From assembly GCA_024278215.1 (NCBI GenBank), contig JAJRTR010000091.1:1-42753 (forward strand): a stretch of 42,753 nt of DNA, written 5' to 3'. A program made the translations under genes and the position numbers. The notes beneath the pieces were generated by a model, which saw only the letters and a program-made list of their open reading frames with translations, was not told the origin of the DNA and did not search any database. Source of the DNA: a bacterium. GTDB taxonomy: Bacteria; UBP15; UBA6099; JAJRTR01. This document shows positions 1,528 to 13,943 of the stretch, in pieces; positions within the stretch are counted from its first letter, which is position 1; the number at the start of each line of letters is the position of its first letter.

Positions 1528-2763
1528 ATGGCACTGGTACCTCCGCATGGAAAAGACAAAGAACTGAAACCTCTGCTTCTGGAGGGCTCTGCGCTTGCAG
1601 ATGAAAAGAAGAAGGCAGAAGGTCTTAAGAAAATCCCGATGAGTTCGATGGAAGTATGCGACTGTGTAATGCTGGGAATAGGAGCATTCACGCCGCTTCC
1701 GGGATTCATGGGTAAAGCAGACTGGCAGGGTGTGTGTGACGACATGAAACTGGCCGATGGCACATTCTGGCCGATACCCGTAACGCTCAGCGCCACGAAG
1801 GAACTCGCCGACAGCATCGGTGCCGGCGAGGAAGTCGCTCTGGTTGATCCCGAACACGGCGATGAGATCATAGCGACGATGAAGGTTGAAGAAAAATATG
1901 AAATCGACAAGGTCCACCAGTGCAAACAGGTCTACACGACCGACGACAAGGAGCACCCCGGCGTGGCCAAGGTCCTGGCGCAACCCCCGGTGAACCTGGC
2001 AGGGCCGGTCAAAGTTCTTTCCGAGAGCATATTCCCCGAGGAGTTCAAGGGGACATACATGACACCGGCGGAAAGCCGCAAGATATTCAATGAGCTGGGC
2101 TGGAGCAGAATTGCAGCGTTCCAGACAAGGAACCCCATGCACCGCTCGCATGAATATCTCGCGAAAATCGCGATCGAAGTATGCGACGGCGTATATGTAC
2201 ATCAGATTCTCGGCAAACTTAAAGCCGGCGACATTCCCGCGGAAGTCCGCTCAGACTGCATCAATACACTCGTGGACAAATACTTCGTGAAAGACACAGT
2301 AGTGGTAGGCGGATACCCGATGGAGATGCGCTATGCGGGCCCGCGCGAAGCGCTGTTCCATGCGCTTTTCCGCCAGAACTACGGATGCAGCCACCTGATC
2401 GTCGGTCGCGACCACGCCGGTGTGGGCGACTATTACGGCCCGTTCGACGCGCAGACGATTTTCACAAAGATACCCGAAGGCTCTCTCGTGACGCGCAACC
2501 TGAACATCGACTGGACATTCTGGTGCAACGCCTGCAACGGCATGGCATCGATGAAGACATGCCCGCATGGAAAAGAAGACCGGGTACTGCTCAGCGGCAC
2601 AATCGTGCGCAAGACACTCAGCGAAGGCGGCGACCTGAATCCGAACTTCAGCCGGCCCGAAGTGCTTGAGATACTAAAGAAGTACTATGCAAGCCTTGCG
2701 GACGACGAAAAAGTGGATATTAAACTTCACGGTGCCGCGACAGGCGATTCCGGAAAGAAATAA
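1528..2763 (+). CDS. sat: Sulfate adenylyltransferase (ATP sulfurylase)
   Basis: Cytoplasmic enzyme that joins sulfate to ATP to give adenosine 5'-phosphosulfate and pyrophosphate, the first step of sulfate reduction. The 411-residue product has the family signatures [11 protein letters not shown] at 199-209 and GRDHAG at 293-298, and a zinc-site pattern with Cys333, Cys336, Cys345 and His347, as in bacterial dissimilatory-type Sat. There is no C-terminal APS kinase domain, so it is the short homo-oligomeric form. The ATG follows GAGAGGAG at a normal distance. It is the first gene of the sulfate block, with its own promoter and a strong terminator, so it is transcribed apart from aprBA. The dissimilatory role is inferred from the adjacent aprBA and qmoABC. 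Confidence 0.97.
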
Positions 2764-3094: not shown

Positions 3095-3532
3095 ATGCCA
3101 AGTTATGTAAACCCGGAAAAATGTGATGGTTGCAAGGCATTGGACAAGACGGCATGCCAGTATATCTGCCCGAATGACCTCATGGTTCTTAACAAAGATA
3201 TTATGAAGGCCTACAATCGCGATCCCTCGATGTGCTGGGAATGTTACAACTGTGTCAAGATATGCCCGACACAGGCGATTGAAGTTCGTGGATATGCCGA
3301 CTTCTGCCCGATGGGCGCAACATGCACACCGCTGAGGAGCACAGACTCCATCATGTGGACAGTAAAATTCCGCAATGGAATGATGAAAAGATTCAAATTC
3401 CCCATCCGCACAACACCTGAAGGATCGGCAGTGCCGGACGGCGGTTTCGAGACAGGGTCCGATGATCTTCACGATCCCGTACTCTTCACAGAACCCGCAT
3501 CCACGGGAATGGACGCAGTATATACAAAGTAA
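3095..3532 (+). CDS. aprB: Adenylylsulfate reductase, beta subunit
   Basis: Iron-sulfur subunit that passes electrons to the FAD of AprA in the cytoplasm. The 145-residue product carries two [4Fe-4S] binding sets: Cys10, Cys13, Cys21, Cys25 and Cys47, Cys50, Cys53, Cys57, the first with the long spacing usual for AprB. After the ferredoxin part comes the AprB-specific tail that wraps around AprA (about residues 70-145). The start follows AGAAGGAGAGG. It lies 73 bases before aprA in the conserved aprB-aprA order and almost certainly shares its mRNA. Electron donor is expected to be QmoABC, encoded a few genes downstream. Confidence 0.97.
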   Translation: MPSYVNPEKCDGCKALDKTACQYICPNDLMVLNKDIMKAYNRDPSMCWECYNCVKICPTQAIEVRGYADFCPMGATCTPLRSTDSIMWTVKFRNGMMKRFKFPIRTTPEGSAVPDGGFETGSDDLHDPVLFTEPASTGMDAVYTK

Positions 3533-3605: not shown

Positions 3606-5483
3606 ATGCCAGCAGAATTTGAGAACGTTGTAGTCGAAACAGACGTTCTAATCCTCGGTGGTGGAATGTCAGCCTGTGGCGCAGCTATTGAAGCTGCATA
3701 TTGGGCGAAGAAGAACAACGTCAAAGTCGCAGTTGTTGACAAAGCTGCAATGGATCGCAGCGGCGCCGTCGCAATGGGCCTCAGTGCTATCAATCAGTAC
3801 ATTGGCCTCAAAGACGGACAGAATTCGATTGAGGATTATGTAAATTACGTTAAACAAGACCTCATGGGCATCGCCCGTGACGACCTCGTGGCCAGCATAG
3901 CCCGCCACGTTGACTCATCAGTACATCTGTTTGAAAAATGGGGCCTCCCCATCTGGAAAGATGCGGACGGCAAATACGTGCATGAGGGCCGCTGGCAGCT
4001 CATGATCAACGGCGAAAGCTACAAAGTTATCGTCGCTGAAGCAGCCAAGAACGCTCTCGGCACAGACAACATCTACGAACGCGTATTCATTGTTGATCCC
4101 ATCATGGACGGCGACAGGGTTGCCGGCGCAGTGGGATTCAGCACCCGCGAAAATAAATTCTACACCTTCAAAGCGAAAGCCGTTATCTGCGGAATGGGCG
4201 GAGCAGTACACATCTTCAAACCCAGGTCCACAGGTGAAGGTCTCGGTCGCGCGTGGTATCCGCCCTGGAACTCCGGCTCCAGCACATACTTCACGCTCAT
4301 GGCCGGCGCGGAACAGACATGCCAGGAAGTCCGATTCATTCCGGTCCGTTTCAAAGATGCTTACGGCCCGGTCGGTGCCTGGTTCCTCCTGTTCAAATCG
4401 CGCGCTTGCAATGCATTCGGCGGCGAATACATGGTCGAACGCAAAGACGAACTCGCAAACTGGGGTCCCTACGGTTCTGCAAAACCGATCCCGGCAAACC
4501 TGCGTAACTATCTCGGAATGCTCGATGTAATGGAAGGCAAAGGCCCGATCTACATGAGGACTGAAGAAGCCATCCAGAAGATCGCCAACGCCGAAACAGA
4601 CGACAAGAAGAGAAAGAAAAAACTCAAAGAGCTCGAAGCTGAAGCATGGGAAGACTTCCTTGACATGACGATCTCGCAGGCGCTCCTGTGGGCCAGCACC
4701 AATGTCGCCCCGGAAGAAAAACCCTCCGAAATCGCAGCGGCAGAACCCTACTTCATCGGCTCCCACTCCGGTGCGTCCGGCTGCTGGGTATCAGGTCCCA
4801 AAGACCTCGCGCCCGATGAATATTTCTTTGGCTATACGAACATGACTACCGTCAAAGGCCTGTTCGCCATGGGCGACGCCTCCGGCGCATCCAGTCATAA
4901 ATTCTCTTCCGGCTCACTCACAGAAGGCCGCATCGCCGCCAAGGCCGCTGTAGCCTTTGTTGTTGACAACCCGGAACAGCCTAATGTCGATGATGCGAAA
5001 GTCGCGGAACTCAGGGAGAAAATCCTCAAACCACTCGTGCTCTTCGAAGAAAACTCTGGAAAGACAACCGACCCGGACACCAACCCGAATTACATCAGAC
5101 CCAAAATGTTCATGTTCCGTCTCCAGAAGATCATGGACGAATACTGTGGTGGAGTTACATCGCAGTTCATCACCTCGAAACCCATGCTGGAAAAAGGCCA
5201 GGAACTTCTGGACTTCCTTCAGGAAGATTCAGACAAACTCGGTGCCGAAAATCTGCATGAACTCATGAGGTGCTGGGAAAACGTACAGAGGCTCTTCCAG
5301 GCTGAAGTACACCTTCGCACGGTTATGTTCCGCGAAGAAACACGCTGGCCCGGTTACTACATGAGGTCCGACTTCATGGCCATCGACGAAGACAACTGGA
5401 AGTGTTTTGTCAACGCCAAGTATGATGCAGCCAGCAAAGAATGGGAAATGAAAAAAGTTCCGATTCTGTCAAAATTTGAGTGA
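3606..5483 (+). CDS. aprA: Adenylylsulfate reductase, alpha subunit
   Basis: Flavoprotein that reduces adenosine phosphosulfate to sulfite and AMP. The 625-residue product begins with an FAD dinucleotide fold (VLILGGGMSACGAA, about residues 14-27) and RSGAVAMG near 50, typical of the fumarate reductase/AprA superfamily. The substrate-side segment SHSGASGCWVSGP includes His387, which I take as the counterpart of the conserved active-site histidine; this assignment is from memory of the family. It is a little shorter than many AprA proteins (about 650). The ATG follows AGGAGG. A lysine/glutamate-rich insert lies near residues 325-350. A strong terminator follows, so aprBA forms a two-gene unit. 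Confidence 0.97.
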   Translation: MPAEFENVVVETDVLILGGGMSACGAAIEAAYWAKKNNVKVAVVDKAAMDRSGAVAMGLSAINQYIGLKDGQNSIEDYVNYVKQDLMGIARDDLVASIARHVDSSVHLFEKWGLPIWKDADGKYVHEGRWQLMINGESYKVIVAEAAKNALGTDNIYERVFIVDPIMDGDRVAGAVGFSTRENKFYTFKAKAVICGMGGAVHIFKPRSTGEGLGRAWYPPWNSGSSTYFTLMAGAEQTCQEVRFIPVRFKDAYGPVGAWFLLFKSRACNAFGGEYMVERKDELANWGPYGSAKPIPANLRNYLGMLDVMEGKGPIYMRTEEAIQKIANAETDDKKRKKKLKELEAEAWEDFLDMTISQALLWASTNVAPEEKPSEIAAAEPYFIGSHSGASGCWVSGPKDLAPDEYFFGYTNMTTVKGLFAMGDASGASSHKFSSGSLTEGRIAAKAAVAFVVDNPEQPNVDDAKVAELREKILKPLVLFEENSGKTTDPDTNPNYIRPKMFMFRLQKIMDEYCGGVTSQFITSKPMLEKGQELLDFLQEDSDKLGAENLHELMRCWENVQRLFQAEVHLRTVMFREETRWPGYYMRSDFMAIDEDNWKCFVNAKYDAASKEWEMKKVPILSKFE

Positions 5484-5508: not shown

Positions 5509-5550
5509 GTTATTCCGGGCGGCCTCGAGCCGCCCGGATAACTTATTTTC
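5509..5550 (+). terminator. Terminator after aprA
   Basis: GTTATTCCGGGCGGC (5509-5523) pairs with GCCGCCCGGATAAC (5529-5542) with one bulged base; TTATTTTCC follows. Confidence 0.8.
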
Positions 5551-5825
5551 CTCACGCTCTATCACGGCTGGTCCCTCGATATAAACATGACGGATATTGT
5601 CAGGCTGAGGATAGAGCACAGAAAATGAACTGCCCCGTAGCAAGCGACCGGCAGGTAATTTATAACAATAAAAGACGGTATATGCAGGGAATGGAGATTT
5701 GGGATTTTAATAAAGAACGAAAGATTCGGTGAAACCCCAGTTCCCCGAGTCCTGCCGGCGGCGGCAAACCGACAAGTTGCTACCGTCTGAATATTTGCCG
5801 GCTATCGGCGAATGGAGGAAGTTGT
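5551..5825 (+). other. Upstream region of the zinc-ribbon gene
   Basis: About 275 bases between the aprA terminator and the next gene. CTCTATC (about 5557) and GATAGAG (about 5610) can pair, and a GC-rich CTGCCGGCGGCGGC stretch lies near 5752. No promoter or known riboswitch pattern was found. Confidence 0.35.
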
Positions 5826-6122
5826 ATGCAGGAACCAGAAAAATTTGACATGGAAAAGACGATCTGCCCACATTGCGGCAGCAGGATGCTCAAGTGGAGA
5901 GTGCCTCCCGATTCCACATGGGGCGTGCCCTACCAGTACGTTTGCTTTAACGACGAATGCGAATATTTTATTAAGCACTGGAAATACATGCTCGAAAATT
6001 ATCGACAGAGAGCATCTTTCAGGCACAGGTACAACCCCTTCAACGGTGAGACCGGCCCACTGCCCGTCTGGTCGTTCAGCGCGATGAAAAGCAGCATAAT
6101 AAAAGATGAAGAATCCGCCTGA
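5826..6122 (+). CDS. Small zinc-ribbon protein next to aprBA
   Basis: A 98-residue protein with a single zinc-ribbon pattern: Cys14-x2-Cys17 and Cys40-x4-Cys45, similar to the Ogr/Delta type of zinc finger. The rest is basic and aromatic, without a membrane segment. The ATG follows GGAGGA. The gene sits between aprBA and qmoABC, followed 43 bases later by a cysteine-cluster gene. Its position suggests a link to sulfate respiration, for example maturation or regulation of the Apr or Qmo proteins, but this is inference from neighbourhood only. The function is unknown to me. Confidence 0.8.
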   Translation: MQEPEKFDMEKTICPHCGSRMLKWRVPPDSTWGVPYQYVCFNDECEYFIKHWKYMLENYRQRASFRHRYNPFNGETGPLPVWSFSAMKSSIIKDEESA

Positions 6123-6165
6123 CACAATTGGGTTGCGACCGGCATAATTTTAGTTTGGAGCCATA

Positions 6166-7017
6166 ATGAGCAGCGATAACAATACAGATACAGCCGATAT
6201 GCAGGATGTTGATGATTTCAGGCAACATATTCTGGATGAGTATGAAAGATTGAATCTCGACAGCAAATTCAAGTTCAATTGCGGCAATGAAATGAAATGT
6301 TTTACGAAATGTTGCGGCGACATCAATATTTTCCTTACGCCTTATGACATCATCCGCCTCAAGAACAGGCTCGGAATGGCTTCGCAGGATTTCATCGAGA
6401 AGTACACATTAAATCCATTCACTAAAACACAGAGACTGCCGTCGGCTCTTTTAAAACTTGACGAAGATAAACGATGCCCGTTTGTAACGGACGAAGGTTG
6501 TTCGGTGTATGAGGACAGACCATGGGCCTGCCGCATGTATCCTATCGGGCTGGCTTCGCCCAGCGATGAAAGCATGGAGTCCGGAGCTGAAGAGGAATTT
6601 TATTTCATGATGGCTGAAGACCATTGTCTGGGTGTGAAAGAGTGTGATCGTGAACTGACCATCAGGGAATGGATCGAGGACCAGGGGATAGCTCCCTACA
6701 ATGAGATGGGCGAATATTTCAAGAGTGTAAGTATGCACAAGCTGTTGCACGAGATCGAGCTTACGCCGCAGAAGATGGAAATGTACTATATGGTCTGCTA
6801 CAACATCGACGCTTTCAAGAAGTTTGTTTTCGAGAGCCGTTTCACAGATGTTTATGAGATCGAACAGGAAACACTCGACATAATTAAGGAAGACGATGTC
6901 GAGCTTTTTAAGTTCGGTGTAGATTACCTGCTGTTCGGACTTTATAACGAGCCGACGATAAAAGTAAAATCGGAAGTCCTCAAGGCGAAAAGGAAAGCAA
7001 TGAGGCTGGACGACTAG
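6166..7017 (+). CDS. YkgJ-type zinc/iron-chelating cysteine cluster protein
   Basis: The 283-residue product contains the cysteine cluster of the YkgJ/UPF0153 family: Cys39, Cys45, Cys49, Cys50, then Cys104, Cys112 and Cys122, with the family phrase RPWACRMYPIG at 118-128. The N-terminal 30 residues are acidic. The C-terminal half (about 150-283) has no motif I know and may be a partner-binding domain. The start ATG follows TTTGGAG. It lies downstream of the zinc-ribbon gene and 220 bases before qmoA. Members of this family bind metal, probably zinc or an iron-sulfur cluster; the biochemical role is not established. A role in assembling or protecting the APS-reduction machinery is inference. 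Confidence 0.85.
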   Translation: MSSDNNTDTADMQDVDDFRQHILDEYERLNLDSKFKFNCGNEMKCFTKCCGDINIFLTPYDIIRLKNRLGMASQDFIEKYTLNPFTKTQRLPSALLKLDEDKRCPFVTDEGCSVYEDRPWACRMYPIGLASPSDESMESGAEEEFYFMMAEDHCLGVKECDRELTIREWIEDQGIAPYNEMGEYFKSVSMHKLLHEIELTPQKMEMYYMVCYNIDAFKKFVFESRFTDVYEIEQETLDIIKEDDVELFKFGVDYLLFGLYNEPTIKVKSEVLKAKRKAMRLDD

Positions 7018-7237
7018 GCGAGGGGCTTTCGACTCGAGTTGTTTTAAGATGATTTTTGAGCCATAGCGGTTTTGTATAAATAACGGGAAAACTTGCGACG
7101 GTCGAGGATAGCGCAAGAGACCTGATGCAGAAACCCGGTGAAGTCGCGATAAATCTACCGGGCCGTTTCCGGCCATGCAAACACTGCTGTGAATCAAAAT
7201 AGAAAAGTTACAAAAATCTTGCATTGGTGGAGATGTC
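7018..7237 (+). promoter_or_regulatory. Intergenic leader upstream of qmoA
   Basis: Two hairpins are visible: CTTGCG/CGCAAG (about 7092-7117) and CCCGGT (7134-7139) with ACCGGG (7157-7162). No terminator-like T run follows, so they are more likely leader structures. No clear promoter boxes. Confidence 0.35.
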
Positions 7238-8488
7238 ATGAGTGAACCGAAAAGCATTCTGGTCATCGGCGGCGGGATTTCAGGGATGACGGCGGCCCTG
7301 GAAGCTGCCGAGGCGGGAAAAAGTGTGGCGCTGATAGAGAAAAGCCCGTATATTGGGGGACGGGTAGCGCGAATCAATCAGTACTTCCCCAAATTCTGTC
7401 CTCCTGTGTGCGGGATGGAGATCAATCTCAAAAGGATCAAGAGCAACCCGAACATCACGATTTACACACTCGCCGAAGTGGACAGTATTTCCGGCAGCGC
7501 CGGGAACTACGATGTCAGCGTGACCGTCAATCCACGGTATGTCAACAGCAAATGCACCCTCTGCGGAAAGTGCTCTGAAGTATGTACTGCGGAAATAGAC
7601 GACGATTTCAACCTCGGCATGTGTAAGACAAAAGCGGCATACCTGCCCCACAAAATGGCGTATCCGAGACTTTATGTCCTCGACCCGAGCATCATCGGGA
7701 CAGACGATGCGCAGAAGTGTAAGGAGGCCTGCAAGTATGATGCTGTCGACCTGGATATGAAGCCCGAAAAAGTCACAATCAACGCCGCCGCGATTATAGT
7801 AGCGACAGGCTGGCAACCTTTCGATGCCTCGAAAGTCGATTATTACAACTTCGATAAAAACGACAACATTATCACGAATGTGATGATGGAACGTCTGAAC
7901 GCTGAAGACGGACCGACACAGGGAAAAATCCTGCGCCCATCGGACGGCAAGGAACCGGCAAGTGTGGCTTTCGTGCAGTGCGCGGGCTCCCGCGACGAGA
8001 ACTACCAGGGCTATTGCTCGGGTGTCTGCTGCGCGGCGACTATCAAGCAGATTCATTATGTCAGGGAGCAATATCCCGATGCGGAGATAACGGTGTTTTA
8101 CATTGATATCCGCACACCCGGACGCCTCGAAGACTTGTATCTCAAGGCTCAGGAAGACGAAAAAGTCACCTTCCAGAAGGGCAAGGCGGTCAATATCGAC
8201 GGCACATCCAACGGCAACCTGCTGATCGAGGCGGAAGATACTCTCACGGGTGTCAAAAGCAAGAAAGAAGTCGAAATGGTTGTGCTTGCGACTGGAATGG
8301 TCCCGAATCTTGCCGAAACCGGATTGCCCGGAGGCGGCGCGACATTCGACAAATACGGTTTTATCGTACCCGACGGCGAAGGAATCTACGGGGCCGGTGT
8401 GGCGAAGAGACCCGTAGATGTGGCGGTATGCACGAAGGACTCGACGGGCACCGCTCTAAAAGCAATTCAATGTCTGGTGAGGGGGTGA
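7238..8488 (+). CDS. qmoA: Quinone-interacting oxidoreductase subunit QmoA
   Basis: HdrA-like flavoprotein of the Qmo complex, which is thought to feed electrons from the quinone pool to AprBA. The 416-residue product has an N-terminal FAD fold (VIGGGISGMTAALEA, 9-23), Cys54 and Cys58, a [4Fe-4S] set Cys106, Cys109, Cys112, Cys116 with possible partners Cys161/Cys165, and the HdrA-type QCAGSRD (247-253) followed by YCSGVCC (259-265). It is cytoplasmic. The start follows GGTGGAG. qmoB begins three bases after its stop, so the two are translated together. It resembles the N-terminal FAD part of qmoB, showing an ancient duplication. Confidence 0.95.
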   Translation: MSEPKSILVIGGGISGMTAALEAAEAGKSVALIEKSPYIGGRVARINQYFPKFCPPVCGMEINLKRIKSNPNITIYTLAEVDSISGSAGNYDVSVTVNPRYVNSKCTLCGKCSEVCTAEIDDDFNLGMCKTKAAYLPHKMAYPRLYVLDPSIIGTDDAQKCKEACKYDAVDLDMKPEKVTINAAAIIVATGWQPFDASKVDYYNFDKNDNIITNVMMERLNAEDGPTQGKILRPSDGKEPASVAFVQCAGSRDENYQGYCSGVCCAATIKQIHYVREQYPDAEITVFYIDIRTPGRLEDLYLKAQEDEKVTFQKGKAVNIDGTSNGNLLIEAEDTLTGVKSKKEVEMVVLATGMVPNLAETGLPGGGATFDKYGFIVPDGEGIYGAGVAKRPVDVAVCTKDSTGTALKAIQCLVRG

Positions 8489-8491
8489 ACC

Positions 8492-10756
8492 ATGGAAAAG
8501 AAAATAGGATGTTATATTTGTACAGGTTGTGAAATCGGCGAGGCGATAAATGCCGAAGCCGCACTCGAGGAACTCTCGGCGCCGGTCAAGAAAACCCATG
8601 AAGCTTTATGCAGCCCGGAAGGGCTCGCAATGTTGAAGCAGGACATGGAAAGTGAAGGGGTTAACGCCCTCTGTATCGGCGCATGTTCGATGCGCGAGAA
8701 GACAGAAGTGTTCAATACCTTCGATCCCAAAAAGGTTATAGTCGAAAGAGTTAATCTCCGCGAGCATGTCGCCTGGTGCCAGAAGCCGGGGGATGAAGAC
8801 ACGCAGATGATGGTCAACGACTATATGATCATGGGGCTCACGAAGGTCGAGAAGAGCGACTTCCTCGAAGCCTACTCGCCGTCTGAAGAACAGCCCATCG
8901 ACAAGACTATAATTGTCGTCGGCGGCGGCGTCACGGGCCTCACGGCTGCTCTTGAAGCGGCGAAAGCAGGCTACTCGGTGGTTATTGTCGAGAAAGAAGC
9001 CGAACTCGGCGGTTTCCTCGGAAAAATGAACAAACAGTTCCCCAAGAGACCGCCCTACGCTGAACTTCAGGACACAAACATCGGTGACCTGATCGCAGAG
9101 GCTGAAGCCAACTCGAACATCAAGATTTATAAAAATGCCATATTCAACAAGGTCGAAAACGGGCCCTGCATCTATGAGATCAGCCTGAATGTAAATGGCA
9201 AAGAAGTCAACATACGCGGCGGCGCATTCATCATGGCCACCGGCTGGAAACCCTACGACCCCAACAATCTCGGACACCTCGGCTACGGGAACTGCTCGAA
9301 CGTAATTACAAACGTGATGATGGAGGAAATGGCGGCAAAGGGCAAGCTCGAACGCCCTTCCGACGGCCAGGAACCAAAAAGTGTGCTGTTCATCCAGTGC
9401 GCAGGCTCCCGCGACCCGGAACATCTGCCCTACTGCTCAGCGGTTTGCTGCCGTGTTTCGCTCAAACAGGCAAAATATGTCCGGGAAATGATCGGCGACT
9501 CGAAAGTCTACATTCTTTATAAGGATATTCGCTCACCGGGTCTCTACGAAGACTTTTACAAGAACATGCAACAGGACGAAGGTCTCTTCCTCACTAAAGG
9601 CGAGGTTGCCTCCGTCACGGAAGACGCCGACGGCAGTGTCGTCGTCGAGGCCGAAGACACCCTTGTCGGCAAGAATATCAAGTTGAAAGCCGATATGGTT
9701 GTACTGGCCACAGGCATGGTTCCCAACTCGGCCGATGGCGAAGCTATCCGCAAACTCACGGACGCTAAAGCTACCCTTAAGAAAGAAGACGCCGCTAAAC
9801 CACAGATCGAAGCAGCAGAGCAGGACCTCATTACATACAAAGATCATGAAGGTTCTCAAATCCTTAACCTGAACTACAGGCAGGGACCGGACCTACCGAT
9901 GCTCAAGTATGGAATGCCCGATTCGCACTTTATCTGTTTCCCTTATGAAACACGCAGAACCGGTATCTACGCGGCCGGCCCAATGCGCACACCAATGGAC
10001 ATCCAGGATTCGATGGACGATGCCGCAGGCGCCGCTATGAAGGCTATCCAGTGCGTGGAACTCACCTCGCAGGGCAAAGCTGTTCACCCGCGCGCGGGTG
10101 ACGAATCGTACCCGAGCTTCTTCCTACAGCGCTGCACACAGTGCAAACGTTGCACAGAAGAATGTCCCTTCGGCACGATCAATGAAGACGCCAAGGGCAC
10201 ACCGGAGATTTTCCCGACCCGGTGCAGGCGTTGCGGCATCTGCATGGGCGCTTGTCCCGAAAGAATCATTTCCTTTAAAAACTACAGCGTAGATATGATC
10301 GCCAGCGAGATCAAATCGCTGGAAATTCCTGACGAGGATGAAGAAAAACCCAGGGTGCTCGTGTTCATGTGCGAAAACGACGCATACCCGGCGCTGGATA
10401 TCGTCGGCAAGATGAGGTTGCAGTACAGCCCCTTCGTTCGCGTGATTCCTTTGCGCTGCCTGGGCTCTACAAACATCGTGTGGATCGCCGACTCTCTCTC
10501 GTCCGGCTTTGACGGCATCCTGCTCATTGGCTGCAAATACGGCGACGACTACCAGTGTCACTACGTCAAGGGCAGCGAACTTTGCAACACCAGGCTCGGC
10601 AACGTCAAGGAAACACTCGACAGACTCGCGCTCGAATCGGAACGCATCAGGTTCGAACAACTCGAATTCTCCGAATATGAAAAGATTCCGAAGATCATCG
10701 AGGAATTCATGGAGACAATTGATAGAGTCGGGCCGAACCCGTATAAGGATTTCTGA
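8492..10756 (+). CDS. qmoB: Quinone-interacting oxidoreductase subunit QmoB
   Basis: The largest Qmo subunit, 754 residues. Order of domains: HdrA N-terminal part with several cysteines (7, 10, 13 and onwards); FAD fold with VVGGGVTGLTAALEAA near 142-157; the HdrA signature QCAGSRD near 305; two ferredoxin-type [4Fe-4S] motifs, CTQCKRCTEECP near 548 and CRRCGICMGACP near 577; and a C-terminal MvhD/FlpD-like domain (about 610-754) with paired cysteines of a [2Fe-2S] site. It lacks a membrane segment. This layout is typical of QmoB, an HdrA-MvhD fusion. It overlaps the ribosome site of its own start with the end of qmoA (GAGGGGGTG). Confidence 0.95.
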   Translation: MEKKIGCYICTGCEIGEAINAEAALEELSAPVKKTHEALCSPEGLAMLKQDMESEGVNALCIGACSMREKTEVFNTFDPKKVIVERVNLREHVAWCQKPGDEDTQMMVNDYMIMGLTKVEKSDFLEAYSPSEEQPIDKTIIVVGGGVTGLTAALEAAKAGYSVVIVEKEAELGGFLGKMNKQFPKRPPYAELQDTNIGDLIAEAEANSNIKIYKNAIFNKVENGPCIYEISLNVNGKEVNIRGGAFIMATGWKPYDPNNLGHLGYGNCSNVITNVMMEEMAAKGKLERPSDGQEPKSVLFIQCAGSRDPEHLPYCSAVCCRVSLKQAKYVREMIGDSKVYILYKDIRSPGLYEDFYKNMQQDEGLFLTKGEVASVTEDADGSVVVEAEDTLVGKNIKLKADMVVLATGMVPNSADGEAIRKLTDAKATLKKEDAAKPQIEAAEQDLITYKDHEGSQILNLNYRQGPDLPMLKYGMPDSHFICFPYETRRTGIYAAGPMRTPMDIQDSMDDAAGAAMKAIQCVELTSQGKAVHPRAGDESYPSFFLQRCTQCKRCTEECPFGTINEDAKGTPEIFPTRCRRCGICMGACPERIISFKNYSVDMIASEIKSLEIPDEDEEKPRVLVFMCENDAYPALDIVGKMRLQYSPFVRVIPLRCLGSTNIVWIADSLSSGFDGILLIGCKYGDDYQCHYVKGSELCNTRLGNVKETLDRLALESERIRFEQLEFSEYEKIPKIIEEFMETIDRVGPNPYKDF

Positions 10757-10819
10757 TGCAGCTTGTTCAAGAACTATAGCCGGGCGGTTCAGCCGCTCCG
10801 CGCCAGGGAGGTATTTTAC

Positions 10820-12037
10820 ATGGCGAAAGCAAAATTCATAGAGCCGGACCTCGATTTTATTCATGAGATCAGCTCAGCGGAAATGCAGAAATGCTATCAG
10901 TGTTCAACATGCACGGTAGTGTGTCCCATTTCACCCGAAGTCAATCCATTTCCGCGCAAAGAAATGATCTGGGCGCAATGGGGACTTAAAGACAGGCTGC
11001 TGGCAGACCCCGACGTCTGGCTCTGCCACAATTGCAACGACTGTTCGGTGAACTGTCCGCGCGGTGCAAACCCGGGTGATCTTCTTGCCACTCTGCGAAA
11101 CTACTTCTACACAAAAAACGCATGGCCGGCTTTCCTCGGCAAAGCTGTCAACACGCCTTCCATGCTGCCCTTTATTATCGCTATCCCCGCAGTTCTGATT
11201 CTCCTGCTCGCCGCGATCAACGGAACACTCACGCCGCTGTTCCCGCTCGAAGACGGACATATAAGATACGGCGCAATGTTCCCGGGCATGACGCTCATCG
11301 ACCCGCTGTTCGTTTCCGCCACACTTTTCGTTATCATGTCTTTCAGCATCAGCATATCCAAACTATGGAGCGGCATGAACAACATGACGCCGCGAGTTCC
11401 TAATAAAGGGATGCCTCTGGTGCAGGCTATCATCGCGACAATACAGGAGATTCTCACACACTCGCGTTTCGACGAATGCGGACAGGCCAAAACACGATCT
11501 TCTGCACATAAGGCCCTCGTCTTCAGCTTCATTGCTCTTGCTATTGTCACAGGTGTTGTCGCAGGACTTGAATGGCTGGATATTCTGTTCGACATCAACC
11601 TGGTGAGCAGCGGCCACCATGTAACTCCATTGCCCTTTCTCAGTATCATCGGCGGTCCGCTCAAACTTCTCGCAAACGCAGGCGCGCTACTACTCATCTA
11701 TGGCGTTTATACCGCCATCATGAACAGGAAAAACGACCCCGAAGGCGAAACATTCGGCAAACAGACCTACCAGGACTGGTTCCTGCTCTACACGATTCTC
11801 ACAATCGCTCTCACAGGACTCGGCTCCGAACTCTTAAGGCTCGTAAACATCGCTCCCATCGCATATTCTGTATATTTCATACACCTGATTGCCGTGTTTA
11901 TGCTCATCGCGTATCTGCCGTTCTCGAAATTCGCGCATATCGTCTACAGGACAACCGCTATTATACACTCGAAACATGTCGGCAGATATGAAATGACTGC
12001 CGAAGACGTCAAAGGCAAAGAAGCGATAATGCTTTAA
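10820..12037 (+). CDS. qmoC: Quinone-interacting oxidoreductase membrane subunit QmoC
   Basis: Membrane anchor of Qmo: an HdrC-like N-terminal domain with two [4Fe-4S] motifs (CYQCSTCTVVCP and CHNCNDCSVNCP, within the first 90 residues) fused to an HdrE/NarI-like heme b membrane domain with about six hydrophobic segments (roughly residues 110-385). It should take electrons from menaquinol and hand them to QmoAB. I place the start at the ATG at 10820, after GGGAGG, giving 405 residues. An upstream in-frame TTG at 10763 lacks such a site and would add 19 residues foreign to the family. A strong terminator follows, ending the operon. Confidence 0.95.
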   Translation: MAKAKFIEPDLDFIHEISSAEMQKCYQCSTCTVVCPISPEVNPFPRKEMIWAQWGLKDRLLADPDVWLCHNCNDCSVNCPRGANPGDLLATLRNYFYTKNAWPAFLGKAVNTPSMLPFIIAIPAVLILLLAAINGTLTPLFPLEDGHIRYGAMFPGMTLIDPLFVSATLFVIMSFSISISKLWSGMNNMTPRVPNKGMPLVQAIIATIQEILTHSRFDECGQAKTRSSAHKALVFSFIALAIVTGVVAGLEWLDILFDINLVSSGHHVTPLPFLSIIGGPLKLLANAGALLLIYGVYTAIMNRKNDPEGETFGKQTYQDWFLLYTILTIALTGLGSELLRLVNIAPIAYSVYFIHLIAVFMLIAYLPFSKFAHIVYRTTAIIHSKHVGRYEMTAEDVKGKEAIML

Positions 12038-12063
12038 GCAGTCGTCTTTTATTTAACAACATC

Positions 12064-12096
12064 AGGCTCCCGGTTTCGCGCCGGGAGCCTTTTTGA
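12064..12096 (+). terminator. Terminator of qmoABC
   Basis: Perfect stem AGGCTCCCGG (12064-12073) with CCGGGAGCCT (12081-12090), loop TTTCGCG, then TTTT. Confidence 0.9.
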
Positions 12097-12287
12097 GTGG
12101 CTTTCAATAGGAACTGCTATGTGCTATAACGTGTACTGTTTTTTTTTCCGACTTTCAATGCCCGGCACGACACTATTCCTCATGAAGTATGGTTATCAGC
12201 AAAAGTTTTTTTTTATTTCTGAATCTTTTGGGAAACAACACTATCTATTTAAAACATTACGAAAGAGTGAAAGGAGAAACATAAGGA

Positions 12288-13943
12288 ATGGCAACAAAAC
12301 TTGTTATTATTGGAGGCGTGGCGGGAGGTGCCAGCGCGGCGGCGCGGGCAAGGAGAGTGGATGAAACTGCCGAGATTATCGTTCTCGACAGAGGTGAGCA
12401 TATTTCATTCGCCAACTGCGGGCTCCCATACTACATCGGCAATGTCATAAAAGAACGCGACGACCTGCTTGTGGCGACACCGGAGCTGTTCAAAAACAGA
12501 TTCAACGTCGAGATAAGAAATTTCAACGAAGTTACCGCTCTTGACCGTGGGAAAAAGGAACTGACCGTAAAGAACATCATTACCGGCGAAGAGTATAAGG
12601 AAACTTACGACAAACTTATAATTTCACCGGGCGCGGAACCCGTCCGGCCGCCGCTCGAGGGCATTGACCTCGACACAATATATGCCTTGCGAAACATACC
12701 TGATATGGACGCCATAAAAAAACATGTCGAGGAGTTGAAACCTGAAAAGGCAGTTGTAGTCGGCGGCGGGTTTATAGGGATCGAGATGGCTGAAAATCTC
12801 GAGTTTCGGGGTGTTGATGTCGCCATAGTCGAGATGCTCGACCAGGTAATGGCGCCTGTAGATTACGAAATGGCCGAATATGTTCATATTCACCTTAAAG
12901 AAAAAGGAATCGAGTTGCGACTCGGCGAGGCTGTCAAATCATTCAGGAAGGAAGACGGTCGCACCGTCGTCACGACATCCGGCGGCGACATAGCCTGCGA
13001 CATGGTGATCCTCTCGATAGGCGTCAGGCCTGAAAGCATTATCGCCAAAGAGGCGGGACTGGAAATCGGCGAGCGCGGCGGCATCAAGACCGACGAGTAC
13101 ATGAGAACATCCGATCCCGATATATTCGCGGTAGGCGACGCCGTGGAAGTCGTTGACTATGTGTCCGGCGGCCCTGCAATGATTCCCCTTGCGGGTCCCG
13201 CAAATAAGCAGGGGCGCATCGCTGCCGACAACGCGCTAGGCAGAAGCGAAAAGTATAACGGCACTCAGGGCACCAGCATCGTTCAGGTCTTCGATCTTGT
13301 TGTAGCCGCCACAGGCAACAGCGAGAAAGTGCTGAAACGCAACAACGCCGATTATCTCGTGTCATACACTCATTCCGGCTCGAACGCGGGATATTATCCC
13401 GGCTCAGAGATGATGCACATAAAGTTGCTTTTCGCGCCCGGCGCCGGCAAAGTGCTCGGCGCACAGATCGTCGGCCAGAAAGGTGTCGATAAAAGAATCG
13501 ATGTCCTCGCGACAGCCATCAGGGCCGGCATGACGGTCTACGACCTGACCGAACTCGAACTTGCCTACGCTCCACCATTCTCTTCGGCTAAAGACCCTGT
13601 GAATATCGCCGGCTATGTCGCGACAAATGTGCTTAAAGGTGACATGAAAATTGTTTCTCCTGCCGAACTCGACAACATGCAACTCGAAGATTATGTCATT
13701 ATTGATGTGAGGGATAAAGAAGAGGTGGCAGACAGCCGGCTTTTCTGCAACGCGGTAAATATTCCGGTGAACGATATTCGCAGCAAACTCGGCGAACTGG
13801 ATAAATCTAAAACTTATCTTACCTACTGCGGAATCGGCCTGCGTAGTTATATCGCGTACCGAATACTGGTTCAGAACGGATTCGACGCGGTCAACATCAG
13901 CGGCGGTTTTCAGACGATCAACACAGCATGTAAAAACAGGTGA
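12288..13943 (+). CDS. CoA-disulfide/persulfide reductase with rhodanese domain
   Basis: A 551-residue pyridine-nucleotide-disulfide oxidoreductase fused to a rhodanese domain. FAD motif GGVAGGASAAARARR (9-23); the active-site cysteine of CoA-disulfide reductases in SFANCGLPYY (Cys44); NAD(P)H motif VVVGGGFIGIEMAE (about 156-169); dimerisation domain to about 450; rhodanese domain with its own cysteine at 514 (YCGIGLRS). This architecture is shared by NADH-dependent persulfide/polysulfide reductases and CoADR-RHD. It would reduce zero-valent sulfur carried as CoA-persulfide or polysulfide. The start follows AAAGGAG. It lies 250 bases downstream of the qmoC terminator, so it is probably a separate unit, but the sulfur theme matches its neighbours. 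Confidence 0.9.
   Translation: MATKLVIIGGVAGGASAAARARRVDETAEIIVLDRGEHISFANCGLPYYIGNVIKERDDLLVATPELFKNRFNVEIRNFNEVTALDRGKKELTVKNIITGEEYKETYDKLIISPGAEPVRPPLEGIDLDTIYALRNIPDMDAIKKHVEELKPEKAVVVGGGFIGIEMAENLEFRGVDVAIVEMLDQVMAPVDYEMAEYVHIHLKEKGIELRLGEAVKSFRKEDGRTVVTTSGGDIACDMVILSIGVRPESIIAKEAGLEIGERGGIKTDEYMRTSDPDIFAVGDAVEVVDYVSGGPAMIPLAGPANKQGRIAADNALGRSEKYNGTQGTSIVQVFDLVVAATGNSEKVLKRNNADYLVSYTHSGSNAGYYPGSEMMHIKLLFAPGAGKVLGAQIVGQKGVDKRIDVLATAIRAGMTVYDLTELELAYAPPFSSAKDPVNIAGYVATNVLKGDMKIVSPAELDNMQLEDYVIIDVRDKEEVADSRLFCNAVNIPVNDIRSKLGELDKSKTYLTYCGIGLRSYIAYRILVQNGFDAVNISGGFQTINTACKNR

Follow-up and report, generated by a model that had tools for sequence, protein, structure and literature searches.

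A gene order resembling the one analysed here was described in Candidatus Thermonerobacter by Thiel et al. There, "two conserved hypothetical genes" lie between aprA and qmoC in the order sat-aprBA-hyp-hyp-qmoC, followed by dsr genes, and the passage describing them gives neither a family nor a function (PMC6338057). Syntenic genes 1-4, of unknown function, were marked in acidobacterial MAGs by Hausmann et al. and are left unnamed in the part of the paper concerned (PMC6018796). In Desulfovibrio, QmoD/DVU0851 is also an accessory gene in the qmo operon. Compared by description only, it differs from the pair studied here in being the last gene of the operon and in having been reported, in the section concerned, without a homologue outside Desulfovibrio (PMC3125180).

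Two other lines of published work bear on this pair. FliB methylates lysines of flagellin, has 8 conserved Cys and binds an oxygen-sensitive [4Fe-4S] cluster through CX4CX3CC (PMC8598068). In tagged preparations from D. vulgaris, the ApsA peptide FLLFK carried mono-, di- and trimethyl-lysine and the ApsB peptide MWTVK carried trimethyl-lysine (PMC3125180). The mass accuracy of the first stage could not separate trimethyl from acetyl groups, but methyl is favoured by the mono- and dimethyl forms and by a loss of 59 Da (PMC3125180). According to the same source, DsrC and ribosomal L7/L12 were also methylated, and two SAM-cycle enzymes were among the partners of ApsA; this 2011 paper nowhere uses the word "methyltransferase" (PMC3125180). 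Among the matches listed for the open-licence literature, we found no paper whose title ties YkgJ or PF03692 to sulfate reducers, the best match on the methylation side being the 2011 study itself, and no function assigned to the two hypothetical genes at the aprA-qmo position. The word YkgJ is absent from the main text of the D. vulgaris and D. alaskensis fitness papers.

The gene block and its two protein families

The window, i.e. the whole stretch of 42,753 nucleotides that was analysed, carries the gene block listed in Table 1. A first-pass annotation had placed two metal-binding genes between aprBA and qmoABC, and both were recovered as open reading frames, one encoding a zinc-ribbon protein of 98 aa (ZnR) and the other a YkgJ-type protein of 283 aa. 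Their domain scores exceeded the Pfam cut-offs: 34.1 bits against 26.3 for ZnR (Ogr_Delta), and 41.2 bits against a gathering cut-off of 23 for the YkgJ-type protein (CxxCxxCC). Neither of them was above any family cut-off of NCBIfam. A purine-rich, Shine-Dalgarno-like stretch was found directly 5′ of each gene.

Table 1. Features of the sat-apr-qmo block in the window.
Feature	Coordinates	Strand	Evidence and remarks
sat	1528..2763	+	TIGR00339, NF003166; first gene of the block
aprB	3095..3532	+	TIGR02060 above cut-off; carries Lys91 (MWTVK)
aprA	3606..5483	+	TIGR02061 above cut-off; carries Lys264 (FLLFK)
Terminator-like hairpin 3′ of aprA	5514..5538	+	Terminator scan and fold z −4.7 against shuffles
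ZnR, Ogr/Delta-type zinc ribbon with conserved C-terminal hairpin (SYRHR...PLPVWS)	5826..6122	+	PF04606
YkgJ-type CxxCxxCC protein	6166..7017	+	PF03692; candidate [4Fe-4S] enzyme for AprBA modification or maturation
qmoA	7238..8488	+	HdrA-like match and position
qmoB	8492..10756	+	HdrA/FlpD-like match and position
qmoC	10763..12037	+	NF038018, 435 bits (cut-off 300); start codon uncertain, later start possible

The stem of the hairpin 3′ of aprA has 10 pairs, 9 of them G-C. Further terminator-like hairpins were found 3′ of sat (2773-2804) and 3′ of qmoC (12064-12090). The scanned region had 14 terminator-like sites, which is no clear excess over shuffles (mean 11.3, sd 4.1), and the terminator call at aprA thus depends on how strong its single stem is. 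As this hairpin lies between aprBA and the pair, ZnR and the YkgJ-type gene probably head the qmoABC transcription unit in the window genome, rather than ending the apr unit. Structured RNA was considered for positions 5560-5825 and 7018-7200 and rejected, the folds of the pieces being not clearly beyond shuffles (z −1.5 to 0.7). No Rfam family at gathering score and no tRNA was found within the window. Apart from the pair in the window, the genome has no second ZnR and two much weaker YkgJ paralogues. The block has a further conserved neighbour 3′ of qmoC (12288-13943), encoding a rhodanese-domain protein that resembles CoA-disulfide reductase; it is found likewise in the related loci L081, L084 and L089.

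Among 17 aligned ZnR sequences, the cysteines C14, C17, C40 and C45 are invariant. ZnR shares this four-Cys zinc ribbon with the Ogr/Delta zinc finger, but it lies in an apr-qmo block and is also conserved outside the ribbon, in the two C-terminal motifs SYRHR and PLPVWS. The YkgJ-type protein has eight invariant cysteines (24 sequences aligned): positions 39, 45, 49 and 50 form an N-terminal CX5CX3CC cluster, which is followed by C104, C112, C122 and C154. The complete pattern was present in 29 of 30 Desulfovibrio-like loci, and L184 fell outside the search pattern. The YkgJ protein of E. coli has about 110 aa. The window protein resembles this type in its PF03692 score, but belongs to a longer, AprA-tied subfamily in which positions past the domain (Q173, Y212, F217 and L247) are conserved as well. 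No SAM-binding motif was identified in it.

AF2 models of the two proteins had pLDDT values of 88.9 (ZnR) and 80.2 (YkgJ). A sequence search of solved structures revealed no relative, with best E-values of 0.28 and 0.46 for the two proteins and 0.46 for the YkgJ profile. Searches of solved structures with the models (Foldseek and VIA) stayed at noise level, the best hits having E 0.71 and Z 2.3 for YkgJ and E 1.3 and Z 2.5 for ZnR; these results are no proof of new folds.

Linkage to apr and qmo and co-occurrence with AprA

Six short peptide patterns taken from the YkgJ protein were run against 84,980 species, each represented by one genome; such a scan favours close relatives. The patterns matched 35 stretches, of which 12 were confirmed as loci, with two pairs of near-copies among them (L006/L007 and L008/L015). 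By record name, they came from Deltaproteobacteria, Anaeromyxobacter, Acidobacteria/Acidobacteriota, Chloroflexi, a Nitrospira MAG and a Kapabacteria MAG. Although only YkgJ was used in the scan, 11 of the 12 loci adjoin apr and/or qmo genes, and ZnR lies between aprA and YkgJ in seven. The exception, L011, has two tandem YkgJ genes (7612-9210), and its 19 kb contain no match to apr or qmo. Another tandem pair of YkgJ genes was seen in L012 (6831-8481), 3′ of a divergent AprA. In the 20.8 kb locus L013, which has the gene order of Ca. Thermonerobacter, the interval from aprA to qmoC holds ZnR and YkgJ, and dsrA comes next; there is no qmoA, and the only qmoB-like match has 25 bits. The position of the pair directly 3′ of aprA, without qmoA or a real qmoB, implied a closer tie to AprBA than to QmoAB. 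From this order we infer that the two hypothetical genes of Ca. Thermonerobacter are ZnR and YkgJ.

A broader survey covered 386 diverse genomes, 27 of which had AprA above cut-off. Up to 20 kb around aprA was inspected in 27 loci, i.e. in the 26 genomes other than that of the window and in G299, whose aprA is split. Nine of these loci have the pair, four have YkgJ only, on the qmoC side (L069, L077, L078 and L086; directly 3′ of qmoC in the last three), and 14 have neither gene. For the last group, YkgJ was found elsewhere in five genomes and not at E 1e-10 in nine. Like these four YkgJ-only loci, L008, L010 and L012 from the scan have YkgJ with no adjacent ZnR. In L070 (genome G069), about 2 kb separate aprA from qmoA (10854-12824), and both YkgJ and ZnR are elsewhere in the genome.

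An AprA tree was built from 37 of the 40 available rows (the window, the 12 scan loci and the 27 aprA loci), L008, L011 and L015 being dropped because they had no usable AprA. The pair lies directly 3′ of aprA in 17 of the 37 loci, mostly with qmoA as the next gene, and all 17 fall in one branch of 18 rows with 100/100 support. The remaining row of this branch is a YkgJ-only locus of a Chloroflexi MAG. As all pair loci belong to one AprA branch, it seems that the pair travelled across phyla with that AprA lineage.

The association with AprA does not depend on linkage. Strong YkgJ matches (E < 1e-35) were found in 18 of the 27 AprA-positive genomes and in three of the 359 others. This line was chosen after a gap from 3.9e-37 to 3.5e-21 had been seen in the best matches per genome; at the search threshold of 1e-10 there were 32 genomes, and the 11 set aside had matches of 42-76 bits in reading frames of 136-222 aa. 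Two of the three AprA-negative genomes are assembly cases, namely G299 and G012, in which the contig begins inside YkgJ and continues into qmoABC. The third, G352, has a different Cys spacing. The ZnR profile matched 15 of the 386 genomes, namely G299 and 14 that are AprA-positive. The pair is not universal among AprA genomes: nine of 28 (the 27 and G299) had no YkgJ, eight of the 27 lacked both proteins, and the ninth, G340, had ZnR only.

We also compared 99 genomes of a single family, which was named Desulfovibrio-like because the AprA of its member G029 matched the solved D. gigas structure 3GYX over nearly its full length (1294 bits). AprA was present in 72 of them (71 above the curated cut-off and G399, with aprA split over two contigs) and absent in 27, seven of which had a weaker AprA-like paralogue. 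YkgJ was found in 65 of the 72 AprA-positive genomes and in none of the 27 AprA-negative ones (Fisher test, P = 3.8e-18), the weakest of the 65 matches having 221 bits and the next match 64 bits. Among genomes at least 90% complete, the counts were 58/63 and 0/18. When counted by genus, which handles kinship to that level only, they were 29/33 and 0/11 (P = 1.8e-7); four AprA-positive genera were without YkgJ. ZnR, whose matches were weak (34-51 bits), was detected in 52/72 and 0/27 (P = 7.0e-12). Of the 27 genomes without AprA, 23 had a DsrC peptide match although both proteins were absent from them; ZnR and YkgJ therefore follow APS reductase, not sulfite reduction.

In this family, YkgJ is far from the genes with which it co-occurs. 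In the 16 genomes where a distance on the same contig could be measured, the nearest YkgJ was separated from aprA by 41 kb. Eight YkgJ loci of 14 kb each were examined, and no apr or qmo match was found in any of them. An rfaE-domain-II-type nucleotidyltransferase gene adjoins the unlinked YkgJ in four of these eight loci (L220, L222, L223 and L225) and likewise in G029 (L095); these calls were made by eye, with one locus checked. Also by eye, ZnR-like genes were seen to neighbour a RecA-like ATPase and genes of flagellar appearance in two AprA-positive genomes (L145, near 9655, and L147, 9686-10069).

Because of the linkage and the co-occurrence with AprA, ZnR and YkgJ are in all likelihood accessory proteins dedicated to the dissimilatory APS reductase, AprBA. 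The first-pass annotation had suggested that the pair, if it recurred in other sulfate reducers, could be dedicated assembly or control factors. The neighbourhood survey bears out the recurrence, with linkage to apr or qmo across several phyla. The opposite outcome, with the linkage confined to this genome, is clearly contradicted by this recurrence and by the co-occurrence with AprA even where the genes are unlinked. The word "dedicated" is upheld by the same two results; the restriction to assembly or control is not, with lysine methylation as a third option. APS reductase, to which two unnamed families are now strongly and specifically tied, catalyses the first redox reaction in sulfate respiration. 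Whatever their mechanism, and even if methylation is wrong, the two families mark APS reduction well in metagenomes and set it apart from sulfite reduction on its own.

Likeness to FliB and the lysines of AprBA

The YkgJ-type protein and FliB (NF038110) both have an N-terminal Cys cluster, with CX5CX3CC in the former and CX4CX3CC in the latter, and eight conserved Cys in all. A comparison of the YkgJ profile with four FliB-type proteins gave a moderate match over the Cys region (hhalign probability 75.6, E 2.4e-5), where only one of the four was above the FliB cut-off of 85 bits; with this protein alone the probability was 42.4. Three control comparisons gave probabilities of 1.2, 0.6 and 0.1. 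The two proteins differ in length (373 model positions in FliB, 283 aa in the YkgJ-type protein) and in substrate, that of FliB being flagellin and not AprBA. The FliB model had no match to the window protein in the NCBIfam search at E 0.1, and none in the window's own genome at E 0.001. The window protein was thus not filed as FliB.

Alignment to 1JNR_A and 1JNR_B showed that Lys264 of the window AprA is Lys-A281 of A. fulgidus and corresponds to the methylated lysine of ApsA, and that Lys91 of AprB is Lys-B91 and corresponds to the trimethylated lysine of ApsB. Five positive residues, Lys-A281 among them, ring the entrance of the substrate channel, and residues B69-B104 form a three-stranded sheet in the interface region with the alpha subunit (PMC2211403).

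We attempted to use the conservation of these lysines as a discriminator for YkgJ. Every one of the 37 rows, of which 28 have YkgJ and nine lack it, has K at the AprA position, and 33 of 35 have K at the AprB position. In the nine genomes without YkgJ, K was kept in 9/9 (AprA) and 8/9 (AprB). No lysine column of AprA or AprB was present at 80% or more with YkgJ and at 30% or less without it. The lysines are equally kept in both groups, and the discriminator failed; since the nine YkgJ-less genomes keep the AprA lysine, residue conservation does not test the methylation hypothesis. L012 has T at the methylated position of AprB, yet it carries two YkgJ genes. D. vulgaris itself, the species of the reported methylation, is outside the surveyed genomes, in which the best match to the DsrC peptide was 92%.

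Possible roles of the pair

For the mechanism of the pair, we favour protein lysine methylation of AprBA, with a rough probability of 0.4, because FliB is a characterised possible relative and because the modification of AprA and AprB was reported without a known enzyme. The YkgJ-type protein would bind an Fe-S cluster through CX5CX3CC, perhaps with some of the four further invariant Cys, and, like FliB, might transfer methyl groups from SAM to lysines of a neighbouring enzyme. The candidate targets are Lys264 of AprA, where the APS/sulfite channel opens, and Lys91 of AprB, which belongs to the interface sheet next to AprA. A trimethylated lysine would keep its positive charge permanently and be closed to other reactions, whether at the channel mouth or the subunit interface. 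ZnR, which is often but not always present, might dock the modifier or nascent AprBA. The fully specified version, in which a FliB-like [4Fe-4S] methyltransferase acts on both lysines, ZnR serves for targeting and paralogues serve other targets of the sulfite pathway, is still more tentative. Against methylation stand the nine of 28 AprA genomes that keep the AprA lysine without YkgJ, the position of the window protein outside the FliB model, the moderate profile match to FliB-type proteins, the lack of an identified SAM-binding motif, the T in the AprB of L012, and the Desulfovibrio-like YkgJ loci, which lie apart from apr and qmo and in half of the cases adjoin an rfaE-domain-II-type gene. 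From the first of these it follows that any genuine methylation must be less than universal or depend on other enzymes as well. The methylated DsrC and L7/L12 of D. vulgaris could also point to a general methylating enzyme.

Fe-S or flavin assembly is a close rival. YkgJ would here carry iron or an Fe-S cluster, with ZnR as a chaperone, and the pair would insert or repair the two [4Fe-4S] clusters of AprB, or aid FAD loading or heterodimer assembly. Such a maturation role is possible, and only a little less probable than methylation. It accounts for the same linkage and co-occurrence as methylation does, the Pfam description of PF03692 goes no further than putative chelation of zinc or iron, and the order in L013 makes AprBA, not QmoAB, the partner. 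However, the lack of YkgJ in nine of 28 AprA genomes of the broad survey implied that it is not generally required for cluster insertion, and FliB, the possible relative of known chemistry that we found, is described as a methyltransferase and not as a cluster donor (PMC8598068). It is unlikely that the pair acts between Qmo and AprBA in a redox or docking capacity, or tunes AprBA activity as a sensor. The frequent place of the pair between aprA and qmoA would fit such a role, as would YkgJ next to qmoC in three loci and a paralogue next to dsrP in one genome (G046), but YkgJ lies apart from apr and qmo in all eight Desulfovibrio-like loci, and its profile did not match the two-cluster, ferredoxin-like AprB (probability 0.1).

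The resemblance of ZnR to the Ogr/Delta late-gene activators, seen in its PF04606 match, and the place of the pair at the head of a separate unit 3′ of a terminator-like hairpin raise the idea that the two proteins are transcriptional regulators of the apr-qmo block. We regard this as improbable, given that the conservation of ZnR reaches the SYRHR and PLPVWS motifs outside the ribbon and that YkgJ occurs without adjacent ZnR in seven loci. Even less credit can be given to neutral hitch-hiking, i.e. to a pair without a role that was fixed by one old transfer of the apr-qmo block. All 17 in-locus pairs do fall in one AprA branch, but unlinked copies also track AprA in the Desulfovibrio-like genomes, for both YkgJ and ZnR, and those of YkgJ still do so when counted by genus.

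If lysine methylation is the true mechanism, it would name the enzyme behind the trimethylation of AprA and AprB reported in 2011, and FliB-type Fe-S methyl transfer would be used on metabolic enzymes. In G046, the YkgJ paralogue (L096: 6322-6993) adjoins dsrP, followed by dsrJ, dsrK and dsrM, all named by NCBIfam equivalogs. This paralogue, which might be a version for a second target, is of interest because DsrC was also reported as modified in D. vulgaris (PMC3125180).
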